In this document: positions 15,341-58,343 of the stretch, piece after piece
Layout of the letters: every line of letters begins with the position of its first letter
Numbering within the stretch: the stretch's first letter is position 1
NCBI GenBank assembly: GCA_015057715.1
Contig: SVDS01000015.1
Location: forward strand, 1 to 58,896
Length of the DNA stretch: 58,896 nucleotides
Direction of reading: 5' to 3'
Source: Paenibacillaceae bacterium
Lineage (GTDB): Bacteria; Bacillota; Clostridia; Lachnospirales; Lachnospiraceae
Notes under the pieces: model-generated
Told to the model about the DNA's origin: nothing
The model's database searches: none
The model's input: the letters and a program-made list of their open reading frames with translations, nothing else
Position numbers and translations under genes: made by a program

Positions 15341-16570
15341 TTATTTTATTAAGGATGGCATCTTTTTCATCCGTTCGATGGCTTCCACTGTATTTTCATA
15401 GGTTCCAAATGCTGTAAGGCGGAAGTAACCTTCTCCGCTGGGACCGAATCCGCTTCCAGGGGTTCCCACAACGCTGGCTTCCTCTAAAAGCCGGTCAAAG
15501 AAGTCCCAGGAAGTCATTCCTTCCGGCACCCGCAGCCAGATATAAGGTGCATTCACACCTCCGTATACTTCGCAGCCAGCCTCTTTTAAACCGTCATAGA
15601 TCACCTTTGCATTTCTCATGTAATAGGCAACCTGTTCTTTTAACTGAGCCTTACCTTCTTTGGAATAAACCGCTGTTCCAGCCTTCTGAATGATATAGGG
15701 AGCACCGTTAAACTTGGTACCGTGGCGTCTTGCCCATAAAGAATGGAGCATGACTCCCCCTCTTACCAGAGATTTGGGGATCACGGTAAAGCCAAGACGT
15801 ACACCGGTAAAACCGGCATTCTTGGAAAAGGAACGAAATTCAATGGCACAGGTATTGGCTCCTTCTATCTCATAGATGGAATGAGGCACATCCTCCTGAG
15901 CAATATAAGCTTCATAGGCGGCGTCATAAAGAATGACTGCACCTGTCTCATTGGCATAATCCACCCATACCTTTAACTGGTCTCTGGTGAGAGTGGTTCC
16001 GGTAGGATTATTGGGAACACATAAGTAAATAAGATCTGGAGTTTCCTCTGGAAGTTCTGGAACAAAATGTTTTTCTGCGGTACATGGCATGTAAATGACA
16101 TTGCTCCACTTCCCTGTTGTTTCATCATATTCACCGGTTCTTCCAGCCATGACATTGGAATCCACATAAACAGGATAAACAGGATCACAGACAGCGATTT
16201 TACAGTTCTGATCGAATATCTCCTGAATATTTCCACAGTCACTTTTTGCTCCGTCGGATACAAAAATTTCATCTGCTGCGATCTGGCAGCCTCTTGGAAT
16301 GTAATCTTCACTGGCAATCAGTTCTCTTAAAAAACCATAACCAAGATCCGGTGCATATCCGTGAAAAGTTCCCGCTTCCCCCATCTCATCTACTGCTCCA
16401 TGAAGCTCCTCAATAATTGCCGGAGCAATGGGCTGGGTTACGTCACCAATTCCAAGACGAATCACCTTTTTATCGGGATTTGCCTCTATATAAGCATTGA
16501 CCTTTTTCGCAATGGTGGAAAACAGATAACTTCCAGGTAATTTTAAGTAGTTTTCATTGATCTTAACCAT
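15341..16570 (-). CDS. dapL: LL-diaminopimelate aminotransferase
   Basis: The 409-residue fold-type I PLP enzyme is a clear DapL: MVKINENYLKLPGSYLF at the start, GIGDVTQP near 42, FVSDGAKSDCGN near 105, CVPNNPTGT near 186 and the PLP lysine in EFRSFSKNAGFTG near 247. DapL converts tetrahydrodipicolinate plus glutamate to LL-diaminopimelate in one step, bypassing the succinyl and acetyl routes. It is typical of clostridia and supplies lysine and cell-wall DAP. It lies 15 bp after dapF, the next enzyme of the path, with an AGGAGG site. Confidence 0.96.
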   Translation of the reverse strand: MVKINENYLKLPGSYLFSTIAKKVNAYIEANPDKKVIRLGIGDVTQPIAPAIIEELHGAVDEMGEAGTFHGYAPDLGYGFLRELIASEDYIPRGCQIAADEIFVSDGAKSDCGNIQEIFDQNCKIAVCDPVYPVYVDSNVMAGRTGEYDETTGKWSNVIYMPCTAEKHFVPELPEETPDLIYLCVPNNPTGTTLTRDQLKVWVDYANETGAVILYDAAYEAYIAQEDVPHSIYEIEGANTCAIEFRSFSKNAGFTGVRLGFTVIPKSLVRGGVMLHSLWARRHGTKFNGAPYIIQKAGTAVYSKEGKAQLKEQVAYYMRNAKVIYDGLKEAGCEVYGGVNAPYIWLRVPEGMTSWDFFDRLLEEASVVGTPGSGFGPSGEGYFRLTAFGTYENTVEAIERMKKMPSLIK

Positions 16571-16585: not shown

Positions 16586-17398
16586 TTAAAGATTATTTAT
16601 GTCCAACTCTCCTGCAAACACCTCCACAGCAGGACCTGTCATAAATACATGACCGCTGCCCTCTCTGTCCCAGTGAATCGTTAAGTTGCCGCCTTTTAAT
16701 GAAACCTTCACCGTATTGCCAGTGCGTCCGCAAAGCGCAGAAGCAACCGCACTGGCTGTTGCTCCAGTGCCGCACGCCCAGGTCTCTCCGCTTCCTCTCT
16801 CCCACACCCGCATGCGGATGTGCTCCGGACTTACAACCTGAATAAATTCAGAATTGGTACGTTCCGGAAAACGCTTATGATGTTCAAACCCAGGTCCGAT
16901 TGCCTCTAAATCCAGGCTGTCAATGTCATCCATATAATAAACTGCATGGGGATTTCCCATGGAAATTCCAATAAACTCATAATCCGTACCATTCACACAA
17001 ATAGGCTCTGGTACCTGGCTGGTTAATTCCGGTATGCCCATATCAACCGTTAAAAGGACTGCTTTCCCATCTTCCTCAGTCACTTTTAAATGCTTGATTC
17101 CAGCTGCCGTTTCCACATCAAACTCTGTCTTTTCCACCAGATGATGATCGAAAACATACTTACCCACACAGCGGATCCCATTGCCGCACATGGGGCTTTC
17201 TGAACCGTCAGCGTTAAACATGCGCATACGGCAGTCTGCCACTTTGGACGGGCAGATCAGAATCAGACCGTCCGATCCGATTCCAAAATGCCGGTCACTG
17301 ACTTTTTTTGAAAGCTCTGCAGGATCCTCAACGGATTCCTCAAAACAGTTAATATAAACATAATCGTTTCCGATTCCCTGCATTTTTGTAAATTTCAT
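16586..17398 (-). CDS. dapF: Diaminopimelate epimerase (canonical)
   Basis: The 270-residue protein has both active-site cysteines: NADGSESPMCGNGIRC near residue 70 and ERGSGETWACGTGA near 210, plus GIGNDYVYI at the start and SMGNPHAV near 147. It converts LL-DAP to meso-DAP by two-base racemisation without cofactor. It sits 15 bp after the ANTAR gene and 15 bp before dapL. A second, divergent paralogue occurs at 35525-36385. This one is the housekeeping enzyme. Confidence 0.96.
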   Translation of the reverse strand: MKFTKMQGIGNDYVYINCFEESVEDPAELSKKVSDRHFGIGSDGLILICPSKVADCRMRMFNADGSESPMCGNGIRCVGKYVFDHHLVEKTEFDVETAAGIKHLKVTEEDGKAVLLTVDMGIPELTSQVPEPICVNGTDYEFIGISMGNPHAVYYMDDIDSLDLEAIGPGFEHHKRFPERTNSEFIQVVSPEHIRMRVWERGSGETWACGTGATASAVASALCGRTGNTVKVSLKGGNLTIHWDREGSGHVFMTGPAVEVFAGELDINNL

Positions 17399-19536: not shown

Positions 19537-19565
19537 AATATAACAGCTTAAAAAAAATTTGTCAA
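19537..19565 (-). promoter_or_regulatory. Promoter of glnA
   Basis: TTGACA (19565-19560) and TATATT (19542-19537) on the minus strand with a 17-bp spacer. The -35 box contains the stop codon of the upstream P-type ATPase gene. Confidence 0.75.
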
Positions 19566-21439
19566 TGTGTTTTTTTATTCCCGTTTTGATACCGGAGCGC
19601 CCGGACTGCATTTAAAATCGCAATCACAGAAACGCCTACATCACCAAAAACAGCGGCCCACATAGTAGCAATTCCTGCTGCTGAAAGGATCAGAATCAGC
19701 ACCTTCACACCTATGGCAAAAATAATATTCTGCTTTACAATTCCCACAGTTTTTCTGGCAATCAGAATTGTATCAACCAATTTCGTAAGCTCATCGGTCA
19801 TAATTACCACGTCTGCTGCTTCCACGGCTGCATCAGAGCCAATCTGACCCATGGCAATTCCTACATCTGCACGGGCAAGAACCGGTGCATCATTGATTCC
19901 GTCTCCAACAAAGGCAATCGCTGCATCCTTATGCTTCTTTGTCAGCAGCTCTTCCACCTTGCCTACTTTATCGCCGGGAAGAAGACCTCCATGAACCTCA
20001 TCAAGTCCAAGCTTTTCTCCCACCAGTTTTCCTACCTCAGGTTTGTCGCCGGTAAGCATCACTAACTTTTTCACTCCAGCTGCCCTTAAGCCCTTTAAGG
20101 CTTGTGGTACATCTTCCCTGATGGTATCTGAAATCGTTACACTGCCAAGATAAGTGTTATTATCTGCTATATAAAGGGTTGTTCCTGCCATGGAATCTGC
20201 TGTATTTACAGCAATTCCCTGCCTTTCCATAAGTCTGGCATTCCCAATATACAGCTCTCTTTCCTTATTCTGTGTATAAACCTTTGTTTTTACTCCAAAT
20301 CCTGCAATTTCTTCTGCAGCGCCTACCATTGACGGATCAAGTGCTTTTCCGTAAGCTTCTTTTACCGAATGGGCAATTGGGTGATTGGAATGAAATTCAC
20401 CATAGGCGGCAAGCTCTAAGAGCTCTTCTTTTGTTCCTGCAAGTGGATCTACACCGGTAACCTGGAATTTTCCGGTTGTTAACGTTCCTGTTTTATCAAA
20501 AACTACCGTATCCAGATTAGCCATGGCTTCCAGATAGTTGCTTCCCTTTAACAGAATTCCCTGGCCAGAGGCCGCTCCAAGTCCTCCAAAAAAGCTTAAT
20601 GGAACGGATATTACCAGTGCACAGGGACAGGAAACAACTAAAAAGCTGCAGGCACGGTAAATCCAGGTTCCCCAGTCACCTGTGAATAAAGGCGGAATAA
20701 CACCAAGCATTAAGGCAAGCACTACCACAACAGGCGTATAGACTCTTGCAAATCTGGTGATAAAGTTTTCTGCTCTGGCCTTTCTCGAACTGGCATTCTC
20801 CACCAGTTCCAGGATCTTGGCAACTGTGGAATCATCAAAAAGTCTGGTAACCCGAACCTCTAAAACACCACTTAAATTGATGGAACCGCTTATAACCGGA
20901 TCATTCTCTTTGATTTCCACAGGCATGGATTCCCCGGTTAATGCTTTGGTATCAAGACTGCTGCTGCCTTTTACCACAACTCCATCAAGAGGCACTTTTT
21001 CTCCAGGCTTTACTACTATGATATCGTCAACTTCCACTTCATAGGGATCTACCTTCTCCTCTGTTCCATCACGAAGCAGATTGGCATATTCCGGATTAAT
21101 GTCCATAAGATCTGTTATGGATTTCCTTGATCTGTTTACTGCATAATCGTTAAACAGCTCACCGATCTGATAAAACAGCATAACGCCCACTGCTTCTTCC
21201 AGAGCTCCGATCCCGATTGCTCCAAAGGTTGCCACTGACATTAAAAAGTTTTCATCAAAGAACTGACCATTTTTTATATTTCTGACTGCTCTTAAGGGGA
21301 TATCATAGCCTGCAGCCAGGTAAGAGATAATAAATAAGATCCAGTACCAGAAAACTTTTCCCTCGGCTGCCATGGCAAGAGCAAAGAATACGGCACTTAT
21401 GACCAGTCTGATTCCCATGATTTTCTGTTTCTTTGTCAT
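19562..21439 (-). CDS. P1B-type heavy-metal (Zn/Cd/Pb) translocating ATPase
   Basis: The 625-residue protein has the P1B motifs: CPC in FLVVSCPCALVIS near residue 275, DKTGTLTTG near 317, HSNHPIAHSV near 352 and GDGINDAPVLARADVG near 520. The C-terminal membrane segments carry Lys and Asp (VKVLILILS, FGDVGVSV) typical of the Zn/Cd/Pb group (ZntA/CadA). There is no N-terminal metal-binding domain; a separate 74-residue HMA protein is encoded 15 bp upstream. It exports excess metal from the cytoplasm. It is the last gene of the ArsR-HMA-ATPase run, with no terminator before the glnA promoter. Confidence 0.94.
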   Translation of the reverse strand: MTKKQKIMGIRLVISAVFFALAMAAEGKVFWYWILFIISYLAAGYDIPLRAVRNIKNGQFFDENFLMSVATFGAIGIGALEEAVGVMLFYQIGELFNDYAVNRSRKSITDLMDINPEYANLLRDGTEEKVDPYEVEVDDIIVVKPGEKVPLDGVVVKGSSSLDTKALTGESMPVEIKENDPVISGSINLSGVLEVRVTRLFDDSTVAKILELVENASSRKARAENFITRFARVYTPVVVVLALMLGVIPPLFTGDWGTWIYRACSFLVVSCPCALVISVPLSFFGGLGAASGQGILLKGSNYLEAMANLDTVVFDKTGTLTTGKFQVTGVDPLAGTKEELLELAAYGEFHSNHPIAHSVKEAYGKALDPSMVGAAEEIAGFGVKTKVYTQNKERELYIGNARLMERQGIAVNTADSMAGTTLYIADNNTYLGSVTISDTIREDVPQALKGLRAAGVKKLVMLTGDKPEVGKLVGEKLGLDEVHGGLLPGDKVGKVEELLTKKHKDAAIAFVGDGINDAPVLARADVGIAMGQIGSDAAVEAADVVIMTDELTKLVDTILIARKTVGIVKQNIIFAIGVKVLILILSAAGIATMWAAVFGDVGVSVIAILNAVRALRYQNGNKKTH

Positions 21440-21454
21440 AACTGCTCCTTTTAC

Positions 21455-21679
21455 TTACCGAAGGACTTTAAATTCTGCTTCCGGTTCAATCTTATAGGCT
21501 GTTTTTCTGGCTGCTTCCATAATCTCATCCACTTTTTCTTCTGAAACTTCCATGGTTAATCTCTGGGTCATGAAACTTAAGGATGCGCTTTCCACACCAT
21601 TTAATTTTTTAACCTCTTCTTCAATTTTAGCTGCACAGTTTGCACAGCAAAGGCCCTCTAATTTAACAATTTTTTTCAT
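21455..21679 (-). CDS. Heavy-metal-associated (HMA) domain protein
   Basis: The 74-residue protein is a single ferredoxin-like HMA domain. The metal site is in EGLCCANCAAKIE near residue 8 (Cys-x-x-Cys with an adjacent Cys). It probably passes zinc or cadmium to the P1B ATPase encoded downstream, replacing the N-terminal domain missing from that enzyme. AAGGAGA precedes the start. The gap to the ATPase is 15 bp. Confidence 0.92.
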   Translation of the reverse strand: MKKIVKLEGLCCANCAAKIEEEVKKLNGVESASLSFMTQRLTMEVSEEKVDEIMEAARKTAYKIEPEAEFKVLR

Positions 21680-21717
21680 CTTTTCTCTTCTCCTTTTTCT
21701 CTATTTGATGTAAATCC

Positions 21718-22098
21718 TTATTCGCTGATATGCTCCATTCCCTGAGCCAGGATGGTTTGTATATGACCATCTGCCAGAGAATAAAAAACGGTCTTTCCTT
21801 CTCTTTTAAACTTCACCAGGCGCATCTGCTTTAACACACGAAGCTGATGGGAAATAGCCGACTGCCCCATCTGAAGCAGATTGGCAATGTCACAGACACA
21901 CATCTGGGACTGGCTGAGCACATAGAGAATTCTGATTCTCGTTGGGTCGCCGAAAATTTTAAAAAAATCTGCAAGATCCATGAGCTGCTGCTCTTTTGGC
22001 ATCGCTTTTAATACCTGATTTACAACATTCTCATGAACACAGATAAAATCACACTGATCAATCTCTCCATCACGAACGATTTTCTCTTCTTCTGCCAT
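21718..22098 (-). CDS. ArsR/SmtB-family metal-responsive repressor
   Basis: The 126-residue winged-helix protein has the ArsR core (FFKIFGDPTRIRILYVLSQSQMCVCDIANLLQMGQSAISHQLRVLKQMRLVKFKREGK split over residues 45-105). The CVC pair sits in the alpha-3 helix, where ArsR and CadC proteins bind soft metals, and an HENV/CDF stretch near the N-terminus resembles the alpha-N site of CadC. It should leave DNA when zinc, cadmium or lead bind. It is first in the run with the HMA protein and ATPase. An SmtB-like operator covers its promoter start. Confidence 0.92.
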   Translation of the reverse strand: MAEEEKIVRDGEIDQCDFICVHENVVNQVLKAMPKEQQLMDLADFFKIFGDPTRIRILYVLSQSQMCVCDIANLLQMGQSAISHQLRVLKQMRLVKFKREGKTVFYSLADGHIQTILAQGMEHISE

Positions 22099-31288: not shown

Positions 31289-34200
31289 TTACAATTCCTG
31301 ATCTGTACTGAGGGCATTTTTTAACAAGGAAGCTTTCACTCTGTCATAGCATTCCTCAAAATCATCATCCTGAACCCGGATTACAGTTAAACCTGCACGG
31401 ACAGGAAGCAGTGCTTTGGATATCTGGCTCATCATCTGATATCTTAATTCCTTTAAAATGCGTCTGCATTTCACCTTAATATCTTCTTCTTTGATATTCC
31501 GGCACAGTATCAGGACTTCATAATCCCCATCCAGGCACATGATATCGTCTTCTCTGAAAAACCGCTTCATGAACAATGCCTGTTCCAAAAATGCCTGTCT
31601 GGCGGAATTGGGGTCATTGTTTCCACCATGAAAGGAAAACAGCAAAAGACCTGAAGTTAAAAATCTGTGGCGTGATAAATAATTGTGCATCCTCCCCACT
31701 GCCGCATCACGATTCTGGAAGAACCGTACTCCCTCTGGCAGTAACGGAGTTCTGCATTCTTCCACCTGACTATATAACTCGCCAAGTTCTTCAATATCCA
31801 GCATCACTCCATAAAGAAAACTGTCCCCTGATTTCACAGATAATCTGGAATGGCAAAGAATCCATTTGTATCCGTTGCGGGTCAGGATACGGTACTCCAC
31901 ACCCTTTAAGCTCTCATCTGGACTTAAGGTCTCCGTCATGAGCCTGATTTTTTCCCTATCACCCGGGTGTATCATATTTAAAAGCCGATTCTGGAAGAGC
32001 TCATTCAGCTCATCACTACTATAGCCAAGGATCTCAAGGAATCGGGGGCTTGTATACAAAAACTCCATATCTTCGGATTTTCTGCAGCGGTAATATCCGC
32101 CTAACATACCGGAGCTTAAAAATTCCAGTTCGTCATTTTTAAACCGCAGGGTCCTGTTGGCTTCCTGAAGGCGCTTCTGTGCCAGTACCGTATCGGTAAT
32201 ATCCATGCAGGCGCTTACAATTGCAAATCTTCCGTCTTCCGCCTGTACCACCCGGCCCTTGGCCACCATCCACAGCCAGGTTCCATCTTTTTTTCTCAAC
32301 CTGTGACGGAACGTGTATTCCATTCCCGGAGCCATAAACCGAAGCGTATTCCCCTGTATCATGTTTAAATCTTCCGGGTGCAGAAGGTTTCGTCCTAACC
32401 CATCGGTCTCCCTGGCAAATTCCTCATAAGAATCGTAATTTAAAATACGAAGCATCTCATTATTGGCAAAATACAAAGGCAGCCCCTTATCACAGTAAAC
32501 TCCAATTAAACCACCTGGTGCCATCTGTGCAAAAACCGCGCTTGCTGCCCATTGATTCTCTTCTGCAATATTATTAAAGGAGATATTCTTACCGGCAATC
32601 TTTAATACATCTCTTAACATGTTCTGGGAGTCTTTCAGCTTCTGCCTCTGCTCCATCTGCTCTGTCGCATCTCTTACCGCCCCATAGTAAAGACGGTGAT
32701 CATCCTGCTCCCGTAAAAAGAAGACGCGAAGATGCACCCACATTAATTCTCCGCTGGTGCGGTAACGGCGAAAGGTTCCTTCTGCCCCCTGGAGCGGATT
32801 GTTATATGCCTCTTCAAAGATATTCAGAACCCAGTCCATATCATCTCGATATACCTTGTTTAACACATACCGTTTCCGTTCTTCCATATCAATTGGATTA
32901 TCACCGGTTACACGGTAATATTCCTCATTCACACGGAGAATCTCACAGCGGTCCTCGTAGATCTCATACAATGCAATGGCGCCAAGCATGTTGTTAAGCA
33001 TGGCTTCACTGATGATATTCTCATTAAACAGATCTTCCAGTTTCAGCTGCTTTAGCTGCCGTGCCTGAATTCCCCTGTAATCTAAATTATTGTCTTCATC
33101 CAGAAGTTTTTCTACTACGTGTACCGGGAGGGGCTCATGGTAATAAAAGCCCTGTCCGTAAATGCAGCCGATATTGATCAGGAAATCGACCTGTTCCTTT
33201 TCTTCCACGCCCTCTGCTATGACTTTTAACTGCATCACTCTTGCCATCCGGACAATGGTTTCTAAGATTCCCATCCCTCTTCCCTTGCTATTCTCGTTCA
33301 TATCAAGGAATTTGGTATCAATTTTGATTACGTCCACATTCACATCCTTTAACATGTTTAAGGATGAATACCCGCTTCCAAAATCGTCCATAAATACAGG
33401 GAACCCGGCCCTGCGCAGATCTTCCACAACTTTTCGGATCAGATCGTAATCTTCCGCATAGGCACTTTCCGTAATCTCAATCTCCAGATATTTGGGATCG
33501 ATCTCGTAGCGGCTTACCAGCTGTTTAAACTTCTCTACAACATCAATGGCATAAATATCCATGCGGGACATATTAACCGAAATCGGGATTGGGCGCCTTC
33601 CCTCTTTAATCCAGGCGCTTAGCTGTCTGCAAACCATCTCCCAGACATACACGTCAAGATATGTAATAAAGCCGTTCTGCTCCAGCAGCGGAATAAATTC
33701 TCCGGGTGATATCACCCCTCTCTGGGGGTGCTGCCATCTGACTAAGGATTCCAGACCGATAATCCTGCCCGTCAGCATATTGCACTGGGGCTGGGCATAG
33801 AATATAAATTCCTTCTTCTCAAGTGCACGCTGAATCTCAGAAAGCAGAACCTGATCGCTTTCCATCTTCCGCTTCATTCCCGGATCATACCAGCCCACAC
33901 GTTTCGTATAATTACCCTTCACGGAATTAAGAGCTATGGCAGCCCTGTCATACATCATGCTCACCGGAAGGCTTAAATCCTCAACCCGGTACACGCCAAA
34001 TGCAGGCATAAATCCCGCGTTGCCCCCATACTGCTTGGCATAGATGTTAATCACATCCTCCAGTTCTTCCAGCACGGACAAATCTTCGGGAATGAGGATC
34101 ACAAAATCATCCCCGCCCATATAACCAGCGACAGAAGAGTAAAATTTTTCGATCTCTTTTAAATAATCGCCAATTCTTATTAAGAAACGATCCCCTTCCT

Positions 34201-35098
34201 CTTCTCCATACCATTCATTAAAAAGCTTAAAATGTTCAATATCAATTGCCACCATAAAAAATCCAGAGGAATCTGTATTTTTTAACAGGTAATCCGCTTT
34301 CTCAAAGAACGGTCCATAACGGTAAAGACCAGTCATGGAATCCGTCTCTTCCCTAATCTCCCTAAGTCGTCTTTCCTCTTCTTCATCCTTCTTCTTACGC
34401 TCATCAATATCCTGGATATAACACATAATGATGGCATCTTTATCCGGATTTTCTCCGCTGCGGAATAAAACCAGAATCAGATTCATCCAGCAGTATCCGT
34501 CACCTGGCATCTTCCTGCGGAACTCTCCCCTTAATACCCGGTCGCTGTCCCTTAATCGGGAGGCCATGGAAGATAAATCCCAAAATTCTTCAAAGCTCTG
34601 CTTTTCATCGGGATGCACCATGAAATTCAGTGTTTCCGTAAGAATCTGATCCAACCGGCCTTCCTCAGGAGACAATTCCAGTTTTTCGCTATCATGAAAT
34701 AAAACTTTATAAGTATTCGCTAAAAAATTAAGTTCCAGCAATCCGTCATATACCGTTGACTCAGTCAGATAATAGAACAGATTTTTATTTTTTTCATCTA
34801 CCGGCCGTGACAAAATAAGCCTGCAGTTTTCACTGCCCGGCCAGTCAATCTGCCCGGAAGAAATTGCCATCCAGGCCTGAGAGGCAGTATTATAAGAAAT
34901 CACCGGACCGCCGTTCTCACCTGTCCAGGGGCAGTCCGTACAGGGAGCCGATTTTACTCCTATCCCTTGATAGCAGTGCATTCCTACCTGTAAATTCGGA
35001 TAATATAATTTTGCCATATCATTCAGATATACAATCTTGTAATCCTGGTCAATTATGTAAATACCAGCTTCTCCGTTTTCACACGACATACGCTTCAT
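31289..35098 (-). CDS. Multidomain PAS-GGDEF-EAL-PAS cyclic-di-GMP signalling protein
   Basis: The 1269-residue product (ATG nine bases after AGGAGAGG) has no clear membrane segment. Order: an N-terminal PAS-like sensor with a CTDCPW cysteine motif (about 1-110); a PAS_3-like region (to 235); GGDEF (about 240-410) with the active site read as GGDDF; EAL (about 415-675); then three PAS domains (about 690-1110) and a degenerate C-terminal cyclase-like region. EAL catalytic residues appear intact (Glu in GLESLVRW, SVNMS, EITE, DDFGSGYSS, IKID, IAEGVE, GQGFYY). So phosphodiesterase activity is likely and cyclase activity doubtful. It is a single gene. Confidence 0.9.
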   Translation of the reverse strand: MKRMSCENGEAGIYIIDQDYKIVYLNDMAKLYYPNLQVGMHCYQGIGVKSAPCTDCPWTGENGGPVISYNTASQAWMAISSGQIDWPGSENCRLILSRPVDEKNKNLFYYLTESTVYDGLLELNFLANTYKVLFHDSEKLELSPEEGRLDQILTETLNFMVHPDEKQSFEEFWDLSSMASRLRDSDRVLRGEFRRKMPGDGYCWMNLILVLFRSGENPDKDAIIMCYIQDIDERKKKDEEEERRLREIREETDSMTGLYRYGPFFEKADYLLKNTDSSGFFMVAIDIEHFKLFNEWYGEEEGDRFLIRIGDYLKEIEKFYSSVAGYMGGDDFVILIPEDLSVLEELEDVINIYAKQYGGNAGFMPAFGVYRVEDLSLPVSMMYDRAAIALNSVKGNYTKRVGWYDPGMKRKMESDQVLLSEIQRALEKKEFIFYAQPQCNMLTGRIIGLESLVRWQHPQRGVISPGEFIPLLEQNGFITYLDVYVWEMVCRQLSAWIKEGRRPIPISVNMSRMDIYAIDVVEKFKQLVSRYEIDPKYLEIEITESAYAEDYDLIRKVVEDLRRAGFPVFMDDFGSGYSSLNMLKDVNVDVIKIDTKFLDMNENSKGRGMGILETIVRMARVMQLKVIAEGVEEKEQVDFLINIGCIYGQGFYYHEPLPVHVVEKLLDEDNNLDYRGIQARQLKQLKLEDLFNENIISEAMLNNMLGAIALYEIYEDRCEILRVNEEYYRVTGDNPIDMEERKRYVLNKVYRDDMDWVLNIFEEAYNNPLQGAEGTFRRYRTSGELMWVHLRVFFLREQDDHRLYYGAVRDATEQMEQRQKLKDSQNMLRDVLKIAGKNISFNNIAEENQWAASAVFAQMAPGGLIGVYCDKGLPLYFANNEMLRILNYDSYEEFARETDGLGRNLLHPEDLNMIQGNTLRFMAPGMEYTFRHRLRKKDGTWLWMVAKGRVVQAEDGRFAIVSACMDITDTVLAQKRLQEANRTLRFKNDELEFLSSGMLGGYYRCRKSEDMEFLYTSPRFLEILGYSSDELNELFQNRLLNMIHPGDREKIRLMTETLSPDESLKGVEYRILTRNGYKWILCHSRLSVKSGDSFLYGVMLDIEELGELYSQVEECRTPLLPEGVRFFQNRDAAVGRMHNYLSRHRFLTSGLLLFSFHGGNNDPNSARQAFLEQALFMKRFFREDDIMCLDGDYEVLILCRNIKEEDIKVKCRRILKELRYQMMSQISKALLPVRAGLTVIRVQDDDFEECYDRVKASLLKNALSTDQEL

Positions 35099-35119
35099 AA
35101 GCTCCCGCCTCTCCTGCAA

Positions 35120-35443
35120 TATATCTTCTTTGCAGTAACTAAATTAAGGTATATTATAGTATGAAAATGTAGTTTTCGTCAACACGTTAGCAATATACCG
35201 CGGCAGAATTTTTATTCATAACAAATCATAATTATTCATATTTAATCAAAAACCTGCCCAATTATTTTTTTGAAACAAAATTATTTCAGGTATTTTTTTC
35301 CTATTTCCATGATAAACAGGGAATTTCACGTTCCTGTAAATTATACCTGTCTATCGATAGCAGGACGAAATATTTTTAATTCCAGGGTTTAATATGCAAG
35401 GAATTTTTCTTATTTTATTAATAAATATTTTTATACGGACAAG
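35120..35443. other. Non-coding AT-rich gap upstream of the GGDEF-EAL gene
   Basis: No credible ORF is present. The stretch holds the likely promoter region of the GGDEF-EAL gene and a 19-bp near-palindrome, CCTG-T-CTATCGATAG-CAGG (35346-35364). Nothing else is recognisable. Confidence 0.6.
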
Positions 35444-35510
35444 CAAAAAGCATGACAGCTACGGAAGCTGTCGATTTTTCTCAGACGGCTTCCCGGGACG
35501 GCTGTCATGC
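35444..35510 (-). terminator. Terminator of the ligase / DapF-like operon
   Basis: On the minus strand GCATGACAGC pairs with GCTGTCATGC around a long stem-forming loop, followed by TTTTTG, 15 bp after the DapF-like stop codon. Confidence 0.75.
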
Positions 35511-35524
35511 CTAAATATTTCTTT

Positions 35525-36385
35525 TTACTGAAGTGCCTTCACTTGTTCTGCAAATTCATGAGACAGGATAAATCTGCCTACATAACCCACTTCTCCTGTC
35601 ATCAGAACACTGTAATCTTCCTTAATTTCCACTTCCAGAACCCCGCCTGGCATATGCACATACATCTTTGGATCTGTCAGTCCCATACGGTATGCGGCTC
35701 CGGCTGCTGCGCAGCCGCTGGTTCCGGAGGCAAGGGTATAACCGGCTCCTCTTTCATAGATCTCAATTTCAATATTGGTGCGGTCCAGCACCTTTAAAAG
35801 CTGGGTATTGATCCGTTCCGGAAAATACTCGGCATTTTCAGAATGTTTCCCGATCCGGCATACCAGATCCTTTGATATATCATTTAACCAGATTACACAG
35901 TGGGGATTTCCAATGCTTACACAGGTAACACGGTAAGGGATGCTGCCAAACAGCATGGTTTCATTTAGAACCTCTCTTCTTGGGCCTGTAACAGGTATTT
36001 CATCACTGTAAAAGCTAAGTTTGCCCATGGAAACTTTAATCTTGGTTCCCTCTTCATTCAAATACTGGATGGTCTGCTCTCCGCTTAAGGTGTTGATTAC
36101 AAACTTATTTTTCTGAACATAACCGGCATCCTTTAAATATTTCCCGAATATCCGTACACCGTTTCCGCTTAACTCCGCTTCACTTCCATCGGGATTTAAT
36201 ATTTTTACTTCCAGCTTATCCTGCCCCATGATGGGTCCAACCAACAGCCCGTCTGAGCCCACACCGAAGTTCCGGTCACAAATCAGCCGGATATTCTCCT
36301 TTGTCAGTTTGCATTCATTTTTATTGGGATCAAAAATAAGATAATCATTTCCAAGACCATGATATTTTTCCAAAGTTATATTCAT
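35525..36385 (-). CDS. DapF-superfamily epimerase paralogue with both catalytic cysteines replaced by serine
   Basis: The 286-residue protein has the DapF two-lobe fold: LGNDYLIFD near residue 11, FGVGSDGLL near 40, NPDGSEAELSGNGVR near 70, SIGNPHCV near 157 and ERGAGYTLASGTSG near 212. In DapF the second and fifth of these read MCGNG and ACGTG; here both are Ser (LSGNG, ASGTSG). Ser at both sites is known in some relatives acting on hydroxyproline-type substrates, so it may be an epimerase of another amino acid, a dehydratase, or inactive. It overlaps the upstream D-Ala-D-X ligase gene by four bases. A normal dapF lies at 16586-17398, so this one is not the lysine enzyme. Confidence 0.85.
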   Translation of the reverse strand: MNITLEKYHGLGNDYLIFDPNKNECKLTKENIRLICDRNFGVGSDGLLVGPIMGQDKLEVKILNPDGSEAELSGNGVRIFGKYLKDAGYVQKNKFVINTLSGEQTIQYLNEEGTKIKVSMGKLSFYSDEIPVTGPRREVLNETMLFGSIPYRVTCVSIGNPHCVIWLNDISKDLVCRIGKHSENAEYFPERINTQLLKVLDRTNIEIEIYERGAGYTLASGTSGCAAAGAAYRMGLTDPKMYVHMPGGVLEVEIKEDYSVLMTGEVGYVGRFILSHEFAEQVKALQ

Positions 36386-37407
36386 TCTAATGCCCCTTTC
36401 CCATGTCTGACAATTAAGTCACACAGTTCCTGATAAGAGATTCCTGCAGCTTTTGCTTCCTGGGGGAGTAAGCTGTAAGGTGTCATCCCCGGTAATGTAT
36501 TTGCTTCCAGACAGTAAATACTGCCATCTTGTTCCATCATAAAATCCACTCTGGAGTAATAACCAAGTGAAAGAACCTTATGTACTTTTACAGCCAGATC
36601 AGCCAGTTGATCTGCTTCTTCTTTTGAAAGGCTGGCAGGACAGATCTCCTCTGTCTTACCCGGCTGGTATTTGTTCTCATAATCATAAAAGCCGCTTATG
36701 GGCTTAATCTCAATAGCTGGAAGTGCTGTTCCTCCAAGTATACCCACTGAAAATTCCCTTCCGGTAACTTTCGCCTCGGCAAGCACCGTGTTTTCACAGG
36801 AAAATGCAGTCTCAAGTGCCTTCTTCCACTGCCCTTCCTCTTCCACCATGGTTACTCCCACGCTGGACCCGCAACCGCATGGTTTGACAACACAGGGAAA
36901 TACAAAAGGCTCTGCGTCAGATCCTTTTTCATAAAGTCTCCATTCAGGAGTTTTAATATTCTCCTCCCGCATTAAAAGCTTAGCCAGATGCTTATCCATG
37001 GCTTTAAAGCAGCCCTCGTATCCGGTTCCCGTATAAGGAATCCCAAAGCCGTCAAGAATTGCCTGAATCTGGCCGTTTTCTCCTGCCCCTCCATGGAGCG
37101 CCAGAAAAACCATCTCCGACTCCATACATGCTTCCATCACCCGGTTTCCCATAATTCCACCCAGGCTTCCCCTCCGTTTTACATGTGCTAAATCGGGAGC
37201 ATTCTCGCCAATGTGACTGGAAAATTCCATGCCATCTTCTAAATGGTAAAACCGGATTTCTTCTCCGTCCGGAATTCCCAGATAAGAATCTATCAAACAT
37301 ACTTCATGCCCCTGCTCCATCAGTGCATTTGTAATCATGGCCCCTGAGGATAAGGACACTTCCCGTTCCGGGCTGTATCCGCCCGCCAGTACTGCTATTT
37401 TCATCAT
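36382..37407 (-). CDS. D-alanine-D-alanine ligase family protein (ATP-grasp)
   Basis: The 341-residue ATP-grasp enzyme shows the Ddl motifs: AVLAGGYSPEREVSLSSG near residue 5, LALHGGAGENGQIQ near 103, PCVVKPCGCGSSVGV near 178, FYDYENKYQPG near 250, and EANTLPGMTPYSLLP near 303. The FYDY-x-x-KY loop and SL pair are those of D-Ala-D-Ala ligases rather than D-lactate types, but substrate at the second site cannot be read. It is coupled to the Ser-Ser DapF-like gene, hinting at a dedicated D-amino acid substrate. A divergent AraC gene is 137 bp away. The start could be either of two adjacent ATGs. Confidence 0.88.
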   Translation of the reverse strand: MMKIAVLAGGYSPEREVSLSSGAMITNALMEQGHEVCLIDSYLGIPDGEEIRFYHLEDGMEFSSHIGENAPDLAHVKRRGSLGGIMGNRVMEACMESEMVFLALHGGAGENGQIQAILDGFGIPYTGTGYEGCFKAMDKHLAKLLMREENIKTPEWRLYEKGSDAEPFVFPCVVKPCGCGSSVGVTMVEEEGQWKKALETAFSCENTVLAEAKVTGREFSVGILGGTALPAIEIKPISGFYDYENKYQPGKTEEICPASLSKEEADQLADLAVKVHKVLSLGYYSRVDFMMEQDGSIYCLEANTLPGMTPYSLLPQEAKAAGISYQELCDLIVRHGKGALE

Positions 37408-37544
37408 TCATTCCTTTTCATTCCAGTATTTGATTGATACTATCTATTATAAACAGCACTTTCCAGCATTTCTATTAATATAATGCTTTATATATTGCAA
37501 ATTGTGTTGTATTATAAAACGGAAAGGAGGTGTCACCTGCTACA

Positions 37545-38399
37545 ATGAATAACTATGAAAAACGGGGATATCTAAACAGCAATTTTAAGCTGTTCCACCT
37601 TATGGACGAAGGTAAGCTAAGCTATGATTACCACTATCATGATTTTGATAAAATAATTATCTTTATCCAGGGATCTGTTACATACAGGATTGAAGGCTGC
37701 GCCTATTCTCTGGAACCATATGATATCATACTGGTAAGCCATAATGACATACACCGGCCGGATATAGCAGCACACATTCCTTACGAAAGAATCATTGTCT
37801 ATCTTTCACCCGGATTTTTGAACGCATACCAGTCAGATGACTATGATTTAAGCGCCTGCTTTCAAAAATCCAGAGAGCTTCATTCCCATGTACTGAGAAT
37901 CCACTCCATGGAGAAGAGCAGTTTGTACCGGACATTAACCAATTTGGAATATGCCTGCACCCATGACGGCTATGCAAAAGATTTATACTGTCAGGTAGTC
38001 TTTCTTGAATTTATGATTCAGTTAAACCGTGCCTCTCTGACAAACAGAGTCCAGTATCTGCCACCGTCTACCGGAGATGCCAGGATCTTAAGTATTATGG
38101 ATTATATTAACAGCCACCTGACAGAAGACATGACCGTGGATTTAATCTCAGAATCTTTTTTTATCAGCCGCTATCATCTGATGCATCTTTTTAAAGAAGA
38201 GACCGGCTATACCCTTTTTGATTATATTACAGAAAAACGCCTTCTGCTGGCAAGAGAACGCCTAAGAACCGGCATCTCCGTTACCGATGTATGTTTTTCC
38301 TGCGGATTTAAAAATTATTCTACGTTCTCCAGAGCTTATAAAAACAAGTTTCACATCTCGCCATCAGAGACCATAAAAGAGGATACTGGTTTTTTATAA
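37545..38399 (+). CDS. AraC-family transcriptional regulator with cupin sensor
   Basis: The 284-residue product has an N-terminal cupin-like sensor (KLSYDYHYHDFDKIIIFIQGSV near residue 25, with His ligands) and two C-terminal helix-turn-helix motifs (LISESFFISRYHLMHLFKEETG near 200 and VTDVCFSCGFKNYSTFSRAYK near 250). AAAGGAGG lies 14 bases before the ATG; a GTG at 37530 overlaps that site. It is divergent from the ligase gene and may regulate it. Confidence 0.88.
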   Translation: MNNYEKRGYLNSNFKLFHLMDEGKLSYDYHYHDFDKIIIFIQGSVTYRIEGCAYSLEPYDIILVSHNDIHRPDIAAHIPYERIIVYLSPGFLNAYQSDDYDLSACFQKSRELHSHVLRIHSMEKSSLYRTLTNLEYACTHDGYAKDLYCQVVFLEFMIQLNRASLTNRVQYLPPSTGDARILSIMDYINSHLTEDMTVDLISESFFISRYHLMHLFKEETGYTLFDYITEKRLLLARERLRTGISVTDVCFSCGFKNYSTFSRAYKNKFHISPSETIKEDTGFL

Positions 38400-53500: not shown

Positions 53501-56500
53501 TTATTTTCTTACCCCCTTTTCATCCACTTCATAGTCATCTATTTTCGTGCTTCTGGCAAGAGAACCGTCAGCATTAAAGTAGTACCATTTTCCCTGGATT
53601 TCAATCCAACGGCCGGATACCAGGATGCCACTGCCGTCGAAGAAATACGTTACATCATTGATGGTCTGCCAGTCAGTGACGGCTTTTCCTTCACTGTAGA
53701 ACAGATACTGACCGCTGTCATTTTTCGCCCATTTTTCGGCAGTGGACGGATCAATGGTCAGCTTGATGTAGCGGTGAAGCATAGCGGAAATCTCAGCGCG
53801 GCTTGCATTGGCTTTTGGATTGAAGCTGTTTCCTTCTTTTGACAGGATAACACCTGCCTTCTGCAAGGCTGCCACTGCTTCCTGATATCCGCCCTGAATC
53901 TTTGCTGCATCAGTAAAGACTACGGCATTGCGGACCTGGGGAAGCTTATATTCTGTTGCTTTCCCATAGTTTGCCAGGATTGCTGCCGCCTCTTCACGGG
54001 ATAATGGCCGATCTGGCGCAACCTGACTGTTTTCCCAGTTTACTAAAATCCCTTTTTCTTTCGCCCACTGAATATATGGGCTGTATTCACTGTCTGCCAT
54101 TCCATCTTTTTTATAAGCATTTGGATCAATGTCCGCCAGCTTTCCAAGAGCTTTTGCCAGTACTTTCAGGGTAATGGCATTGTCCGGGGAGAATTCGGTT
54201 TGGGATATACCGTTGATCAGACCTCTGCCGACTACATAATCAATGGAATCCTTGGCCCAATGGCTGCTTATATCTCCTAATTTTGCTGCTGGGGTTTCAT
54301 AACCCAGTCCATATACAGAAAAATGGTTTGTGGTAAAAATCACGCTTCTGCTGTTTCTGTCATAGGCAGAACCTTTCACACGGGCTGGATTTCCCTGCTC
54401 ATCCACATAAACTGCATACAGTCCTCCTATTGCTTCCTCCGATGATGGAGTATAAGGAATACTTACGAAAACAGTACCTGTACCAAAGTTAGAAACATGT
54501 TTTGCTCCGCTTTCATAGCTTGCCTTTAAATCATAAACAGGACGTGTGCCGATCTGGCTTCTTGCCGCTCCGCTAAGTGTGGAGGGCTCCACCTTTTTTG
54601 CCGTAAGCTGTACATCTGCATTGGTCTGGCGATTAATTTCCGTAACTGCCGCCAGATTAATTCCGATTGTGATATCCGGCCGGTCAATCATCATTTCTAC
54701 GCTGGAAATTTTATTACTTATTACCTGCTGCTGTATGTTCTTCGGTAAGTTTACTGTTACAGAAGAGGCGTCCATACCGCCTGTAGAGACCTGGAGGGCT
54801 ACTTTAATATCTCCCGCATTTACACCTTTTTTAGCTGCATTTGCCCTGGCGTTTGCGATTGCATCCGTAATATTTTTGTCAGTAACGCTTACGGCTGCAT
54901 TTCCATTGTTGTCAACTGCTGCCGTACTCTGAGCCGCTCCTGTAACTGCCTGAGTGGGGATGGAGGAAGAACCGCTTGTGGAAGAGGAAGAATCACCGGA
55001 GCTGCTGCCGGAATTTCCGCCTGAGTTTCCACCTGTGTTTCCGCCTGTGTTTCCGCCGTTACTCGTGCCTGGCTGTCCGATTGTTACCGTCAGAGAATCA
55101 GCGCTGGCGGCAAACAGTTCAGTTTCTGCAAAACGTACCACATAGGAACCAGCGGATAAACCTGTAATTTCTCCATTTTCATTGGAGGTTACCTCTTTAT
55201 AGGATCCGTTGTCTTTCTTATACTCATATCTGGTATTAGGGATCAGTCCTGTGATCTTACCGTCATTTCCGCCATTTTCGGTGGTATTTGTCACATCAGG
55301 CTTTTCTGTAGCGTTTGCCTTCGTGCCTTTGTTAACCGTAAGGATACCTAATACTTTCTGACCAGCTGCATGAGTCTGTGTTTTTTCTGTTGTAAGACTG
55401 ATGCGAATGGTTCCTGCTTTGGTAACCGTAAGTATGTTTCCTGAAATGGTGCCAGTACCAGTACTTTCTTCCTCAATGGCATAAATCCGGTTTCCTGCAT
55501 TCTTATCTACAGTAAACAATGAGGAGATCTGTGAGAGATCTATGGTTGTTCCGCTGAAAGAAACAGATGCTTTTCCCCCCACATTTTTAATCGCTGCTTT
55601 TTTGCTGATTTTTATATCTGATGCAATGATATCATCTGCAAAAACATAATCAACACTTGCATTGCCGTTATTTCTTACAGTTGCTGGTTCCGTGTATTCT
55701 CCCTCAACGTTCTGAAGAATATCCATTCCATCATCCGTGATTCCATATCTGGCATGAATGGCAGTGGCAATTCCATCAAGACTGCTGACTGAACCGCTTT
55801 TTGCAAAGACAGTGCCGTCTGTAATTTCAATTCCACTATCTGATACGATACCAACGCTTCTATAATAAGCATCTCCTGCTATGGAAGTAATTTCACCACC
55901 ACTGAGATAAAGAATGCCCAGTGCATAGATGCCGGCACTATACGTTCCAACGGTATCTCCTGCTGATATCTGAAGTCTTCCTGTATTGCCTGCCATTTCC
56001 ATGTCACCGCTGCTAAAGATACCTATGAAATTAGAATCACTATTTGCATCTGAAACACTTACATGGTTGTCGCTGCCATCAGCCAGTAGAACTCTTGTTC
56101 CAGCGGGAAGTTTTATTCCAACCTCGTCGGAACTGATTAGATTAATCCCCTCCAATAAAAGTTCACCCTGGGAATGAAACCATTTCCAGCCTTCCGAAGT
56201 ATCATCAATGTCGCTTCTTCTGGGATTTTTACTTACCAGTTCTCCATTTGAGTTACGGTACCAGACGAGATCTGCTGTTAAGTCCAGCATGTTACTTCTA
56301 AGCCCTGCCTGTTCAATTTTAAACCTGGCATCGCTATTCTTTGCAACGGATAATGCCTGTGCACTTGCCAACTTATCGGCCGGAATAATAATACTTATGG
56401 TTTCATTTGATTTCTGGGCTGGAGTCCCGGAAAAAGTGATGCTGACTTGTCCATCGGAATAGATATGTTCTATCTTAGCAATAATTCCATCTGGAAGATT

Positions 56501-58189
56501 CTGAAACCACTGGGATACATTCTCATCTTCTTCTAAATGGAGGAACGTATCATTTTCCAGTGTAACAGTTACAGAATCTGTGCCTGAAAGTGCAGTTCCT
56601 GTCATTCCGGAAATAATTTTACTTTGTACAAAAGCTTCTGGGTTGGTTTGAATAGTGAATCTTAAATCAGATGCGGTAGTGTTATTTCCATAAACATAAT
56701 AACTACTTGAACCAGCTTTAAATAACTTTACAGCTACTGAATAATCATTGTCTCCCATTTGTAATACGGTAAGCCCTTTACTGTAATTGAACTCAGTAAA
56801 ATATGCTGCGTAACCTTTACCAGTGTCACTTGATTTAACGTAAATTGTTCCACCAGTATAGTTGAAAACATTCGTCAGAATCCCGTAACCAAAGGAGGAC
56901 GAAGGCAGCGACGTTTTTATGGTTCCACCTTCTATGGAAAGTGTGGATGTATGAATGGCTATACCTGTTAATTGCGTAGTTCCCTCAACAAACAGTTCAC
57001 CTTCTCCTTTAATTGTCAATCTCCCTGAAGATTGAATGGGACCAACACTAGATGTTACGGAGTTATCGCTTCCTTCTGCCAAAATGATGGTAGCACCATC
57101 AGGTAAAATAATGCCAGCGGAATCGGTAGTCTGCAAATTAATTCCATCTAATACAAGTGTTTTTTCAGGATAACCTTCCTCTTCATATCCGTCCCGGTAC
57201 CAGTACCAGCCTTCTCCCGTAATTGTAATATCTGATTCAACCGGATTTGCTCCTGTCGGAGAACCAATGGCATTTTTAAATATCAAATTGGGTTTTGTCA
57301 AATCTAGCACGGTTGTACGTTCATACCAGCCGTTGTTTGTATTTCTTAACATATTACCTACAGTTACCGATATAACGGGCAGATCTATACCATATGCCAG
57401 CGCATATTCTTCCGGAAGAGTTGGTTTAAAAATGTACTCTCCTGGCTCTTCTCCGTCATATTCCGGATCAGCACTCCACGTTACCGGTATGGATATCGTG
57501 CTTTCTACCAGACGGCTTTCCTGAAAGTCTGTTGTATCCGTATCACTGACATCAAATAGACCAACTCCGACACTGGCTACTTGAAATACATTGCTGCTGG
57601 TTACTCCAAGATCTTCTGGCTCCTGAGATTTCTCCGGCTCCTGAGATTTCTCCGGCTCCTGCTGTGTTTCCGATTCCTGAGATGTCTCCGGTTCCTGCTT
57701 CGTCTCCGGTTCCTGCTGCGTCTCAACCTCCTGCTGGGTCTCCGGTTCCTGCTGCGTCTCAACCTCCTGCTGGGTCTCCGGTTCCTGCTGGGTCTCCGGT
57801 TCCTGCTGCGTCTCTGGCTCCTGCTGTGTCTCTGGCTCCTGCTGGGTCTCTGGCTCCTGCTGGGTCTCTGGCTCCTGCTGGGTCTCTGGTTCTATGGTAT
57901 TACCATCCTCTGGCATTCCATTGGTTGGATCTACAGCCGGACTGTCAACAATTGTCTCCGTTGCAATAACTGCTGACAATCGGTTTGGCAGATTCAACTC
58001 GCTAAGCGTTGTACCAATCGGCACTGATTGGGATTGTGTCTCCTCTGCCAGTGGTTCAAATGCGGTTATTTCCATCTCGCGATCAGACGGCAGAATATCC
58101 GCTGATGCCGGAAAAGGCATTGCCCCCAACGCCACAACCATTGACAATATCATAGCCAAAGAGCGTTTTAAAGGTTCGTGTTTTTTCAT
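53501..58189 (-). CDS. Large secreted SLH-domain surface protein with hexapeptide repeat stalk
   Basis: The 1562-residue product starts at the ATG seven bases after GGAGGA; the longer upstream reading has no RBS. Order: signal peptide (1-30); an acidic Gln/Glu/Pro/Thr stalk of about 16 six-residue QEPETQ-type units (about 100-190); two related modules, each with a DLT start, GWYWY/GWKWF, then a beta-helix-like stretch (about 300-600 and 640-900); a small repeat domain; a Gly/Asn/Ser linker; a conserved region; three SLH motifs (about 1290-1460); and a C-terminal pair of cell-wall-binding repeats. It should bind wall polymer by SLH and wall repeats and hold the modules outward, perhaps as an adhesin (inference). 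Confidence 0.88.
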   Translation of the reverse strand: MKKHEPLKRSLAMILSMVVALGAMPFPASADILPSDREMEITAFEPLAEETQSQSVPIGTTLSELNLPNRLSAVIATETIVDSPAVDPTNGMPEDGNTIEPETQQEPETQQEPETQQEPETQQEPETQQEPETQQEPETQQEVETQQEPETQQEVETQQEPETKQEPETSQESETQQEPEKSQEPEKSQEPEDLGVTSSNVFQVASVGVGLFDVSDTDTTDFQESRLVESTISIPVTWSADPEYDGEEPGEYIFKPTLPEEYALAYGIDLPVISVTVGNMLRNTNNGWYERTTVLDLTKPNLIFKNAIGSPTGANPVESDITITGEGWYWYRDGYEEEGYPEKTLVLDGINLQTTDSAGIILPDGATIILAEGSDNSVTSSVGPIQSSGRLTIKGEGELFVEGTTQLTGIAIHTSTLSIEGGTIKTSLPSSSFGYGILTNVFNYTGGTIYVKSSDTGKGYAAYFTEFNYSKGLTVLQMGDNDYSVAVKLFKAGSSSYYVYGNNTTASDLRFTIQTNPEAFVQSKIISGMTGTALSGTDSVTVTLENDTFLHLEEDENVSQWFQNLPDGIIAKIEHIYSDGQVSITFSGTPAQKSNETISIIIPADKLASAQALSVAKNSDARFKIEQAGLRSNMLDLTADLVWYRNSNGELVSKNPRRSDIDDTSEGWKWFHSQGELLLEGINLISSDEVGIKLPAGTRVLLADGSDNHVSVSDANSDSNFIGIFSSGDMEMAGNTGRLQISAGDTVGTYSAGIYALGILYLSGGEITSIAGDAYYRSVGIVSDSGIEITDGTVFAKSGSVSSLDGIATAIHARYGITDDGMDILQNVEGEYTEPATVRNNGNASVDYVFADDIIASDIKISKKAAIKNVGGKASVSFSGTTIDLSQISSLFTVDKNAGNRIYAIEEESTGTGTISGNILTVTKAGTIRISLTTEKTQTHAAGQKVLGILTVNKGTKANATEKPDVTNTTENGGNDGKITGLIPNTRYEYKKDNGSYKEVTSNENGEITGLSAGSYVVRFAETELFAASADSLTVTIGQPGTSNGGNTGGNTGGNSGGNSGSSSGDSSSSTSGSSSIPTQAVTGAAQSTAAVDNNGNAAVSVTDKNITDAIANARANAAKKGVNAGDIKVALQVSTGGMDASSVTVNLPKNIQQQVISNKISSVEMMIDRPDITIGINLAAVTEINRQTNADVQLTAKKVEPSTLSGAARSQIGTRPVYDLKASYESGAKHVSNFGTGTVFVSIPYTPSSEEAIGGLYAVYVDEQGNPARVKGSAYDRNSRSVIFTTNHFSVYGLGYETPAAKLGDISSHWAKDSIDYVVGRGLINGISQTEFSPDNAITLKVLAKALGKLADIDPNAYKKDGMADSEYSPYIQWAKEKGILVNWENSQVAPDRPLSREEAAAILANYGKATEYKLPQVRNAVVFTDAAKIQGGYQEAVAALQKAGVILSKEGNSFNPKANASRAEISAMLHRYIKLTIDPSTAEKWAKNDSGQYLFYSEGKAVTDWQTINDVTYFFDGSGILVSGRWIEIQGKWYYFNADGSLARSTKIDDYEVDEKGVRK
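57611..57892 (-). repeat. 18-bp minisatellite encoding the QEPETQ stalk
   Basis: About 15 full 18-bp units plus a partial one read in frame as EPETQQ, with variants EVETQQ, EPETKQ, EPETSQ, ESETQQ and EPEKSQ. The order of variants shows local duplications of two-unit blocks. Copy number probably varies by slippage without breaking the frame. Confidence 0.9.
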
Positions 58190-58305
58190 ATGCTTTCCTC
58201 CTAATGTATTGATGTTGTATTTCCTGCCCGAGCCTTTCAACAGTTTTCCCCCTGTTGTATTACTTGCGATATTATACAACATTCCAATAAACGGAGAATA
58301 AACGA

Positions 58306-58343
58306 AAAAATCCGGCTTCTGCATGGGAATACAGAAAGCCGGA
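58306..58343 (-). terminator. Terminator of the BTAD regulator gene
   Basis: TCCGGCTTTCTG pairs with CAG-AAGCCGGA across a short loop on the minus strand, followed by TTTTTTCG, 20 bp after the stop codon. Confidence 0.85.

Follow-up and report, generated by a model that had tools for sequence, protein, structure and literature searches.

We found that the DapF-like protein encoded at 35525..36385 on the minus strand of the 58,896-nucleotide stretch of DNA analyzed here (hereafter "the window") belongs to a distinct clade of proteins that carry no catalytic cysteine, i.e., it is a conserved paralogue and more than a chance variant. We refer to this protein, which has serine at both catalytic positions, as DapF-S; in gut clostridia, its gene is often accompanied by a regulator gene of its own. 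DapF is the standard case of thiolate-driven racemization and an antibacterial target whose cysteines are attacked by covalent aziridine inhibitors. A clade with a pocket for diaminopimelate (DAP) and no catalytic cysteine implies either that thiol-free chemistry is possible or that the pocket has been re-used, and because its genes exceed the TIGR00652 cut-off, pathway reconstructions may wrongly count them as ordinary dapF. Our searches, which covered open-access literature only, turned up no account of a Ser/Ser DapF. Tentatively, we favor the reading that DapF-S is a thiol-free DAP epimerase isozyme that is AraC-controlled in Lachnospiraceae, which we consider a real possibility while stopping short of calling it probable.

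The locus in the window

The original prediction described dapF-S as overlapping a Ddl-family gene by four bases and sharing its terminator, with a divergent AraC regulator beside the pair and a normal Cys/Cys DapF 18 kb away, and this arrangement was borne out. The open reading frames of dapF-S and of the second Ddl homologue (36382..37407, minus strand; 341 aa) share the four bases ATGA, the junction reading GAATGAAT with GGGAAAGGGG just upstream. A terminator-like hairpin with a T-run (35454..35472, minus strand) follows 3′ of dapF-S at the end of the ddl-dapF-S operon, where positions 35440-35530 gave an RNA fold of -34.5 kcal/mol (z -5.7). Beyond ddl, a gene for an AraC-family regulator with cupin and HTH_18 domains (PF02311 and PF12833) runs divergently at 37530..38399 on the plus strand; its listed start, a GTG at 37530, is probably wrong, and relatives start close to the in-frame ATG at 37545 (MNNYEKRGYLN). 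The canonical DapF (16586..17398, minus strand), with both cysteines in the motifs MCGNG and ACGTG, is encoded 18.1 kb from dapF-S and adjoins dapL (15341-16570).

The Ddl neighbor passed the cut-offs of its families (NF002378, 311.7 bits with a cut-off of 243; TIGR01205, 273.4 with 245.65), as expected for a D-alanine-D-alanine ligase, but it is a second copy that stands beside DapF-S in the nearest relatives only. Another Ddl, 30% identical to that of the window, is encoded elsewhere in the same genome and adjoins a gene recognized by eye as murI; it is thus presumably the housekeeping copy. Among the best 80 of at least 558 confirmed relatives in public genomes, the nearest named matches to the window were Lacrimispora xylanisolvens and L. 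amygdalina.

A DapF fold and pocket without the catalytic cysteines

Scored with the TIGR00652 DapF profile, DapF-S (286 aa) reached 231.7 bits (cut-off 114.65), and PF01678 was matched as well. The structure prediction that had been proposed as a check recovered the DapF fold: The model, built from 37 sequences, had a mean pLDDT of 93.5, and the best 14 structure matches found by Foldseek were all DapF (top E value 1.1e-31, TM 0.87). Structures of the DapF mutants C73S/C217S were among the Foldseek matches, and such mutants have reportedly been studied kinetically; the numbers are those of the H. influenzae enzyme, which we take as labels for the DapF positions. Alignment to canonical DapF, including that of the window, placed Ser73 (codon 36167..36169, minus strand) at the position of the first catalytic cysteine and Ser220 (codon 35726..35728, minus strand) at that of the second, as had been predicted, and hence no cysteine at either one.

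Compared with the DapFs of Anabaena (9MRO) and H. influenzae (1BWZ/2Q9H), DapF-S shares fold, length, and DAP contacts and keeps the motifs GNDY, ERG, and GNPH, with SGNG for CGNG. Unlike them, it has no catalytic cysteine, carries Ile for the third conserved cysteine (GNGIRC) and Tyr for Glu/Ile in ERGxGx, and separates from the compared Cys/Cys proteins in a tree (see below). With profile, fold, and pocket of a DapF and a Ser/Ser pair where DapF has two catalytic cysteines, DapF-S is best called a member of a DapF-related subfamily.

Several other assignments were considered and set aside. The proline racemase/hydroxyproline dehydratase superfamily is not the closest kin, as DapF ranked first by both sequence and fold. 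Its members 4HypE and t3HypD share with DapF-S a serine in place of cysteine at an active-site position and the same overall fold (passages of PMC4113996), but the likeness of this superfamily to DapF-S is a distant structural one, with Foldseek E values from 2e-13. Similarly, the best match to the PhzF family (8.1e-15) fell far behind that to DapF (1.1e-31). O-ureidoserine racemase (7VDY) has a DapF-like fold, ranked 15th among the Foldseek matches, and gave a profile match of 1.6e-44, but its sequence scored below the DapFs, in a comparison made by fold and sequence only. We also looked for a replacement cysteine elsewhere in DapF-S: Cys155 and Cys163 occur in Anabaena DapF too, and they are therefore not specific to DapF-S, so that this idea was dropped.

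Anabaena DapF holds DAP through Asn13 at the proximal amine and through Asn66, Asn164, Asn197, Glu215, and Arg216 at the distal end, as described in part of PMC12039745. The equivalents of these contacts were retained in the clade: N11, N64, and N190 in all 123 aligned members, N157 in 120 of the 123, and E208/R209, corresponding to Glu215/Arg216, in all 48 covering loci of an orthologue set that was not selected by motif. Since the DAP-binding side chains are kept in nearly all members, the pocket appears to be under constraint, even though both nucleophiles are gone.

Distribution and conservation of the clade

Within the family of the window, 49 of 299 genomes (that of the window among them) encode an orthologue of DapF-S with at least 49% identity, as counted by hand from the match list, in which the other matches reached at most 42%. 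Every one of these 49 carriers also had one or more DapF matches besides DapF-S. Across the phylum, 8 of 398 sampled genomes (again with the own genome) encoded DapF-S at 375-497 bits, other above-threshold matches scoring 255-276, and in Halanaerobiia the protein occurred in 3 of 59 genomes, with a canonical DapF alongside in two of them. A scan of public genomes, seeded by YHGLGNDY and ERGAGYTLA, neither of which includes the two catalytic sites, confirmed at least 558 relatives; the analysis used the best 80, which are biased to Lachnospiraceae and include clade members from Desulfosporosinus, Halanaerobiales, a Spirochaete, Planctomycetes, and a Poribacterium. A plasmid search (E 1e-40) yielded one distant dapF only, on an Agrobacterium vitis plasmid.

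Cysteine was absent throughout. Neither site carried one in any of these best 80 public-genome loci. In the orthologue loci L032-L080, the first position was non-Cys in 49 of 49 (L079 being frame-broken and poorly aligned there) and the second in all 48 covering loci (L080 being truncated at the edge of its contig). An alignment restricted to rows of 240-330 aa without X, in which a single phylum supplied most of the canonical rows, contained 123 clade members, none with Cys at either site, and 59 canonical DapFs, all with both. The 123 site pairs were SS (105), ST (6), AS (5), GS (3), SN (2), and SG (2), so that conservation of Ser/Ser across genomes, a check suggested at the outset, was found for most members. 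The remaining 18 lack Ser at one site, with Ala or Gly at site 1 or Thr, Asn, or Gly at site 2; the 10 of these that were checked all have a canonical DapF as well.

Thirteen alignment positions, the two catalytic sites among them, split the clade from canonical DapFs. Its diagnostic residues include Tyr8 (canonical Met), Ile79 (third conserved Cys), Glu208 (window numbering; canonical Arg), and Tyr216. Because the clade rows were picked by the motif ERGxGYT, their counts for Y216, E208, R209, and T214 hold by construction, but the similarity-picked set of L032-L080 showed the same state in the 48 loci that cover these positions. With the thirteen columns removed, a quick, unrooted tree of 92 representatives (LG+G4, no bootstrap) separated all 47 clade members from the rest by a branch whose SH-aLRT was 100.

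That DapF-S is a functionless, decaying duplicate, with Ser/Ser as its degenerate state, is very improbable on these data. Two of the 49 family orthologues do look disrupted (an internal TGA in G214 and a split frame in G205), such that the concern that the protein is a pseudogene product in relatives applies, but rarely, as the frames are intact in nearly all members. A single clade spread over several phyla, its residues fixed and its operator-like element (see below) conserved, refutes decay for the clade as a whole, although decay could hold in a single species.

Genomes with DapF-S as the only DapF homologue

A possible link to the DAP/lysine pathway was seen in genome G621, where the clade's gene lies in a lysA-dapF*-dapL operon whose lysA and dapL exceed NCBIfam equivalog cut-offs; this genome also encodes a canonical DapF. 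No such lysA/dapL-type link was seen in 50 clustered loci (49 plus the window). We then considered 19 genomes, own included, i.e., 14 selected as non-Lachnospiraceae or uncertain in family and 7 others, less 2 duplicates (the pairs G301/G642 and G302/G584 being counted once). The Ser/Ser type was the only DapF homologue in 8 of the 19 (G304, G306, G309, G310, G311, G394, G584, and G642), and serine occupies the two sites in each of these proteins. These are draft assemblies, with completeness known for three (90-96%). For six of the eight, the base composition of the contigs with DapF-S lay within about 6.5 points of that of other contigs in the same genomes, and mis-binning, while not excluded, is thus not obvious.

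None of the eight sole-copy genomes had a meso-DAP dehydrogenase (Ddh) above cut-off. LysA exceeded its cut-off in four (G309, G394, G584, and G642) and had best matches of 197-280 bits in the other four, compared to 277 for the best match in the own genome. DapL (TIGR03542) was above cut-off in G306, G310, G394, and G642, and G309 encoded a protein above the cut-off of the PRK09276 LL-DAP aminotransferase subfamily and under that of TIGR03540, which gives a DapL-type aminotransferase in five of the eight. Hence, G394, G642, and G309 encode both LysA and a DapL candidate, and the Ser/Ser protein is the only one seen that could connect the two; the loci of these three genomes (L222, L135, and L164, respectively) branch near the clade base in the tree as drawn, which is unrooted.

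Sole-copy status does not prove replacement, however, since DapF-free routes may exist: In the Halanaerobiia family f72, 13 of 14 genomes (all but G584) had no DapF match at E ≤ 1e-20. The genomes concerned (G720-G729, G537, G672, and G393) are mostly near-complete. DapF2, a PLP-dependent, non-orthologous DAP epimerase, has been proposed as an alternative where dapF is missing; it belongs to a family related to alanine racemase (PMC9026213), unlike DapF-S.

Gene neighborhood

Of 125 unique loci, 5 had no upstream sequence, leaving 120 to be scored. A divergent araC, called as a tblastn match to the AraC of the window at 1e-6 within 1.3 kb, which misses distant regulators, was found in 76 of these (69 directly and 7 across ddl) and not in the other 44, so that the regulator noted beside dapF-S proved to recur. 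On a hand-made list of non-Lachnospiraceae, it was not found in 17 of 20 upstream-covered loci. By comparison, ddl lies between araC and dapF-S in only 7 of the 120 loci (the window, L087-L091, and L032), which are the nearest relatives of the window, with DapF-like proteins 86-100% identical. In L092 (89%) and L093 (83%), araC is directly divergent with no ddl between, and the araC intergenic region aligns with the araC-ddl intergenic region of the window, which indicates an insertion of ddl between promoter and dapF-S. The coupling is thus most simply read as a late, local addition downstream of the araC promoter. The idea that pairing with a D-amino-acid ligase forms the core of a pathway did not hold up, and rarity of the pair, which had been named as a ground for refutation, applies to its Ddl half and not to the Ser/Ser positions.

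Among the 50 clustered loci, in which neighbor families were named by eye from their sequences, araC occurred in 35 and every other family in at most 13: arsR, a TPR lipoprotein, and addB in 13 each; a metal P-type ATPase, hflX, and addA in 12 each; and an aminotransferase in 9. A conserved metabolic operon in Lachnospiraceae was rejected accordingly; the families other than araC look like synteny at the level of the genus. For 65 of 108 neighbor proteins (long AddB-like proteins, Ddl, and some others being left out), Pfam counts were 6 each for glutamine synthetase and GNAT, 4 for class I aminotransferase, and at most 3 for the rest of the 25 families shown; no clear partner of dapF-S emerged from these 65.

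Some individual neighborhoods deserve mention. In relatives such as L035, L051, L054, and L058, the arsR (13 of 50) and heavy-metal P-type ATPase genes (12 of 50) are found no more than about 8 kb from dapF-S, and the window has a similar pair at 19562-22098, about 14 kb from dapF-S; this recurrence is probably inherited synteny, yet it is of interest for the thiophilic-metal idea discussed below. In L143 (6831-10359; Halanaerobiales), DapF-S is flanked by two serine beta-lactamase/esterase-like genes; PF00144 was matched by 2 of the 65 neighbor proteins, which were not assigned one by one to loci such as this. Genome G054 carries two DapF-S copies, one of them in L071 (G054:C44, 3769-11012), which resembles a small biosynthetic cluster: A metallo-hydrolase-like gene, an amino-acid-adenylating enzyme, and an aminotransferase precede dapF-S, and ABC-transporter genes follow it.

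Residues and neighbors together bear on an alternative in which the same pocket hosts another, one-sided reaction (dehydration, beta-elimination, or isomerization) of a DAP-like diamino acid, or of an amino acid with a distal L-amino-acid end, feeding a side pathway whose D-amino-acid product could be used by Ddl where present. We regard this alternative as possible but doubtful. Precedents are a Ser/Thr member of the proline racemase superfamily that is a dehydratase (passages of PMC4113996) and Cys-to-Ser glutamate racemases that catalyze elimination (passages of PMC8142540). A one-sided reaction would moreover tolerate the one-sided losses (ST, SN, SG, AS, and GS), and the family-specific Tyr216, Glu208 for Arg, Ile79 for Cys, and Tyr8 for Met point the same way, as do the position of the G054 gene (L071) between adenylating enzyme plus aminotransferase and transporter genes and the class I aminotransferase within about 8 kb in 9 of the 50 clustered loci. 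However, the DAP contacts are retained, the lysA-dapF*-dapL operon exists, and no neighbor other than araC occurs in more than 13 of the 50 loci.

A candidate operator upstream of dapF-S

The araC intergenic regions share an operator-like element. A TTTGCA[AT] core was present in register in 61 of 75 such regions, with flanking GCA half-sites in most, and GCA spacings of 9, 12, and 21 bp dominated (61-63 pairs each); TTTGCAA itself occurred in 60 of the 75, compared to 3.2 expected from shuffles. A weight matrix run over 2.65 Mb of loci, counting duplicates and training sites, matched 79 times; 71 of these matches carry a training-site sequence, and by their coordinates the other 8 are also situated just upstream of dapF-S or ddl. 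The single match within the window is CAACACAATTTGCAATATATAAAGCATTAT at 37480..37509 (minus strand). Of the 5.40-Mb own genome, 439,274 bases were scanned and contained no site besides that of the window, and a search for a regulon in G035, over 400,000 bases of a 2.77-Mb genome, gave one weak match, scoring 22.6 as opposed to 32.7 at the true site. With an HTH_18 domain (PF12833) and a direct-repeat element beside the gene, its half-sites 21 bp apart, the regulator has the features of the AraC family and would bind the element at 37480-37509. Judged from these sequence patterns, AraC and its candidate operator look like a local regulator of one gene.

A regulator so close to the gene is also what might be expected if DapF-S were a non-catalytic DAP binder, i.e., a pseudoenzyme serving as sensor or buffer that, for example, reports peptidoglycan turnover to the adjacent AraC. 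This would explain a pocket conserved while both nucleophiles were lost, and 18 members go further still, to Ala, Gly, Asn, or Thr. We nevertheless consider it unlikely: All eight sole-copy members keep Ser at both sites, the protein occurs as the sole DapF beside DapL and LysA, no araC was found in 44 of the 120 loci (including 17 of the 20 outside Lachnospiraceae), and the AraC protein has a cupin ligand domain of its own.

A possible thiol-free epimerase

In the preferred reading, DapF-S would bind LL-/meso-diaminopimelate in the normal DapF pocket, where Ser73 and Ser220, at the N-termini of two active-site helices, would interconvert the epimers in place of a thiol/thiolate pair. Outside Lachnospiraceae, it appears to be the sole DapF in some lineages; within Lachnospiraceae, it would act as a second copy, mostly under a divergent AraC via the 21-bp-spaced operator, with a probable use under conditions that disable thiol enzymes (oxidants, electrophiles, or thiophilic metals). 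In the close relatives of the window, insertion of a second ddl downstream of the promoter would have created an AraC-controlled peptidoglycan-precursor pair. DAP as substrate, catalysis by Ser/Ser, and the role in stress are inferred. The pocket residues, the G621 operon, and the 8 of 19 sole-copy genomes with Ser/Ser in all eight support an isozyme. Catalytic serines also have precedent in the proline racemase superfamily, where 4HypE uses Ser/Cys and t3HypD Ser/Thr for epimerization or dehydration (passages of PMC4113996). C. glutamicum DapF is inactivated by H2O2 through oxidation of its catalytic cysteine pair (part of PMC5296763), which could plausibly explain why a separately controlled copy free of thiols is maintained.

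Other observations count against an isozyme. Single Cys-to-Ser changes greatly reduce turnover in a related histidine racemase (part of PMC11602996), and the 18 of 123 members without Ser at one site show losses that a two-base mechanism would not tolerate. In the family of the window, DapF-S is never the sole copy (49 of 49 carriers have a further DapF match), and the own genome encodes Ddh (450 bits). Given the slow serine mutants, the 18 non-Ser members, the extra-copy status, and the DapF-less family f72, a changed reaction and a pseudoenzyme stay serious rivals. The fullest version of the preferred reading, which we consider rather unlikely in its entirety, is that a natural two-serine DAP epimerase without a thiol is the sole DapF in several lineages and that Lachnospiraceae turned it into a backup for making cell-wall precursors, controlled by AraC and proof against oxidation and metals, to which the Lacrimispora group added a second Ddl.

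Two further genes of the window may be recorded. Directly downstream of the ddl-dapF-S operon lies a gene for a large PAS/GGDEF/EAL protein (31289-35119), and a PAS/GGDEF/EAL-like gene was also seen by eye downstream in L032 and L033. A large repeat protein, in which EPETQQ hexapeptides follow one another close to the start, is encoded at 53501-58324.
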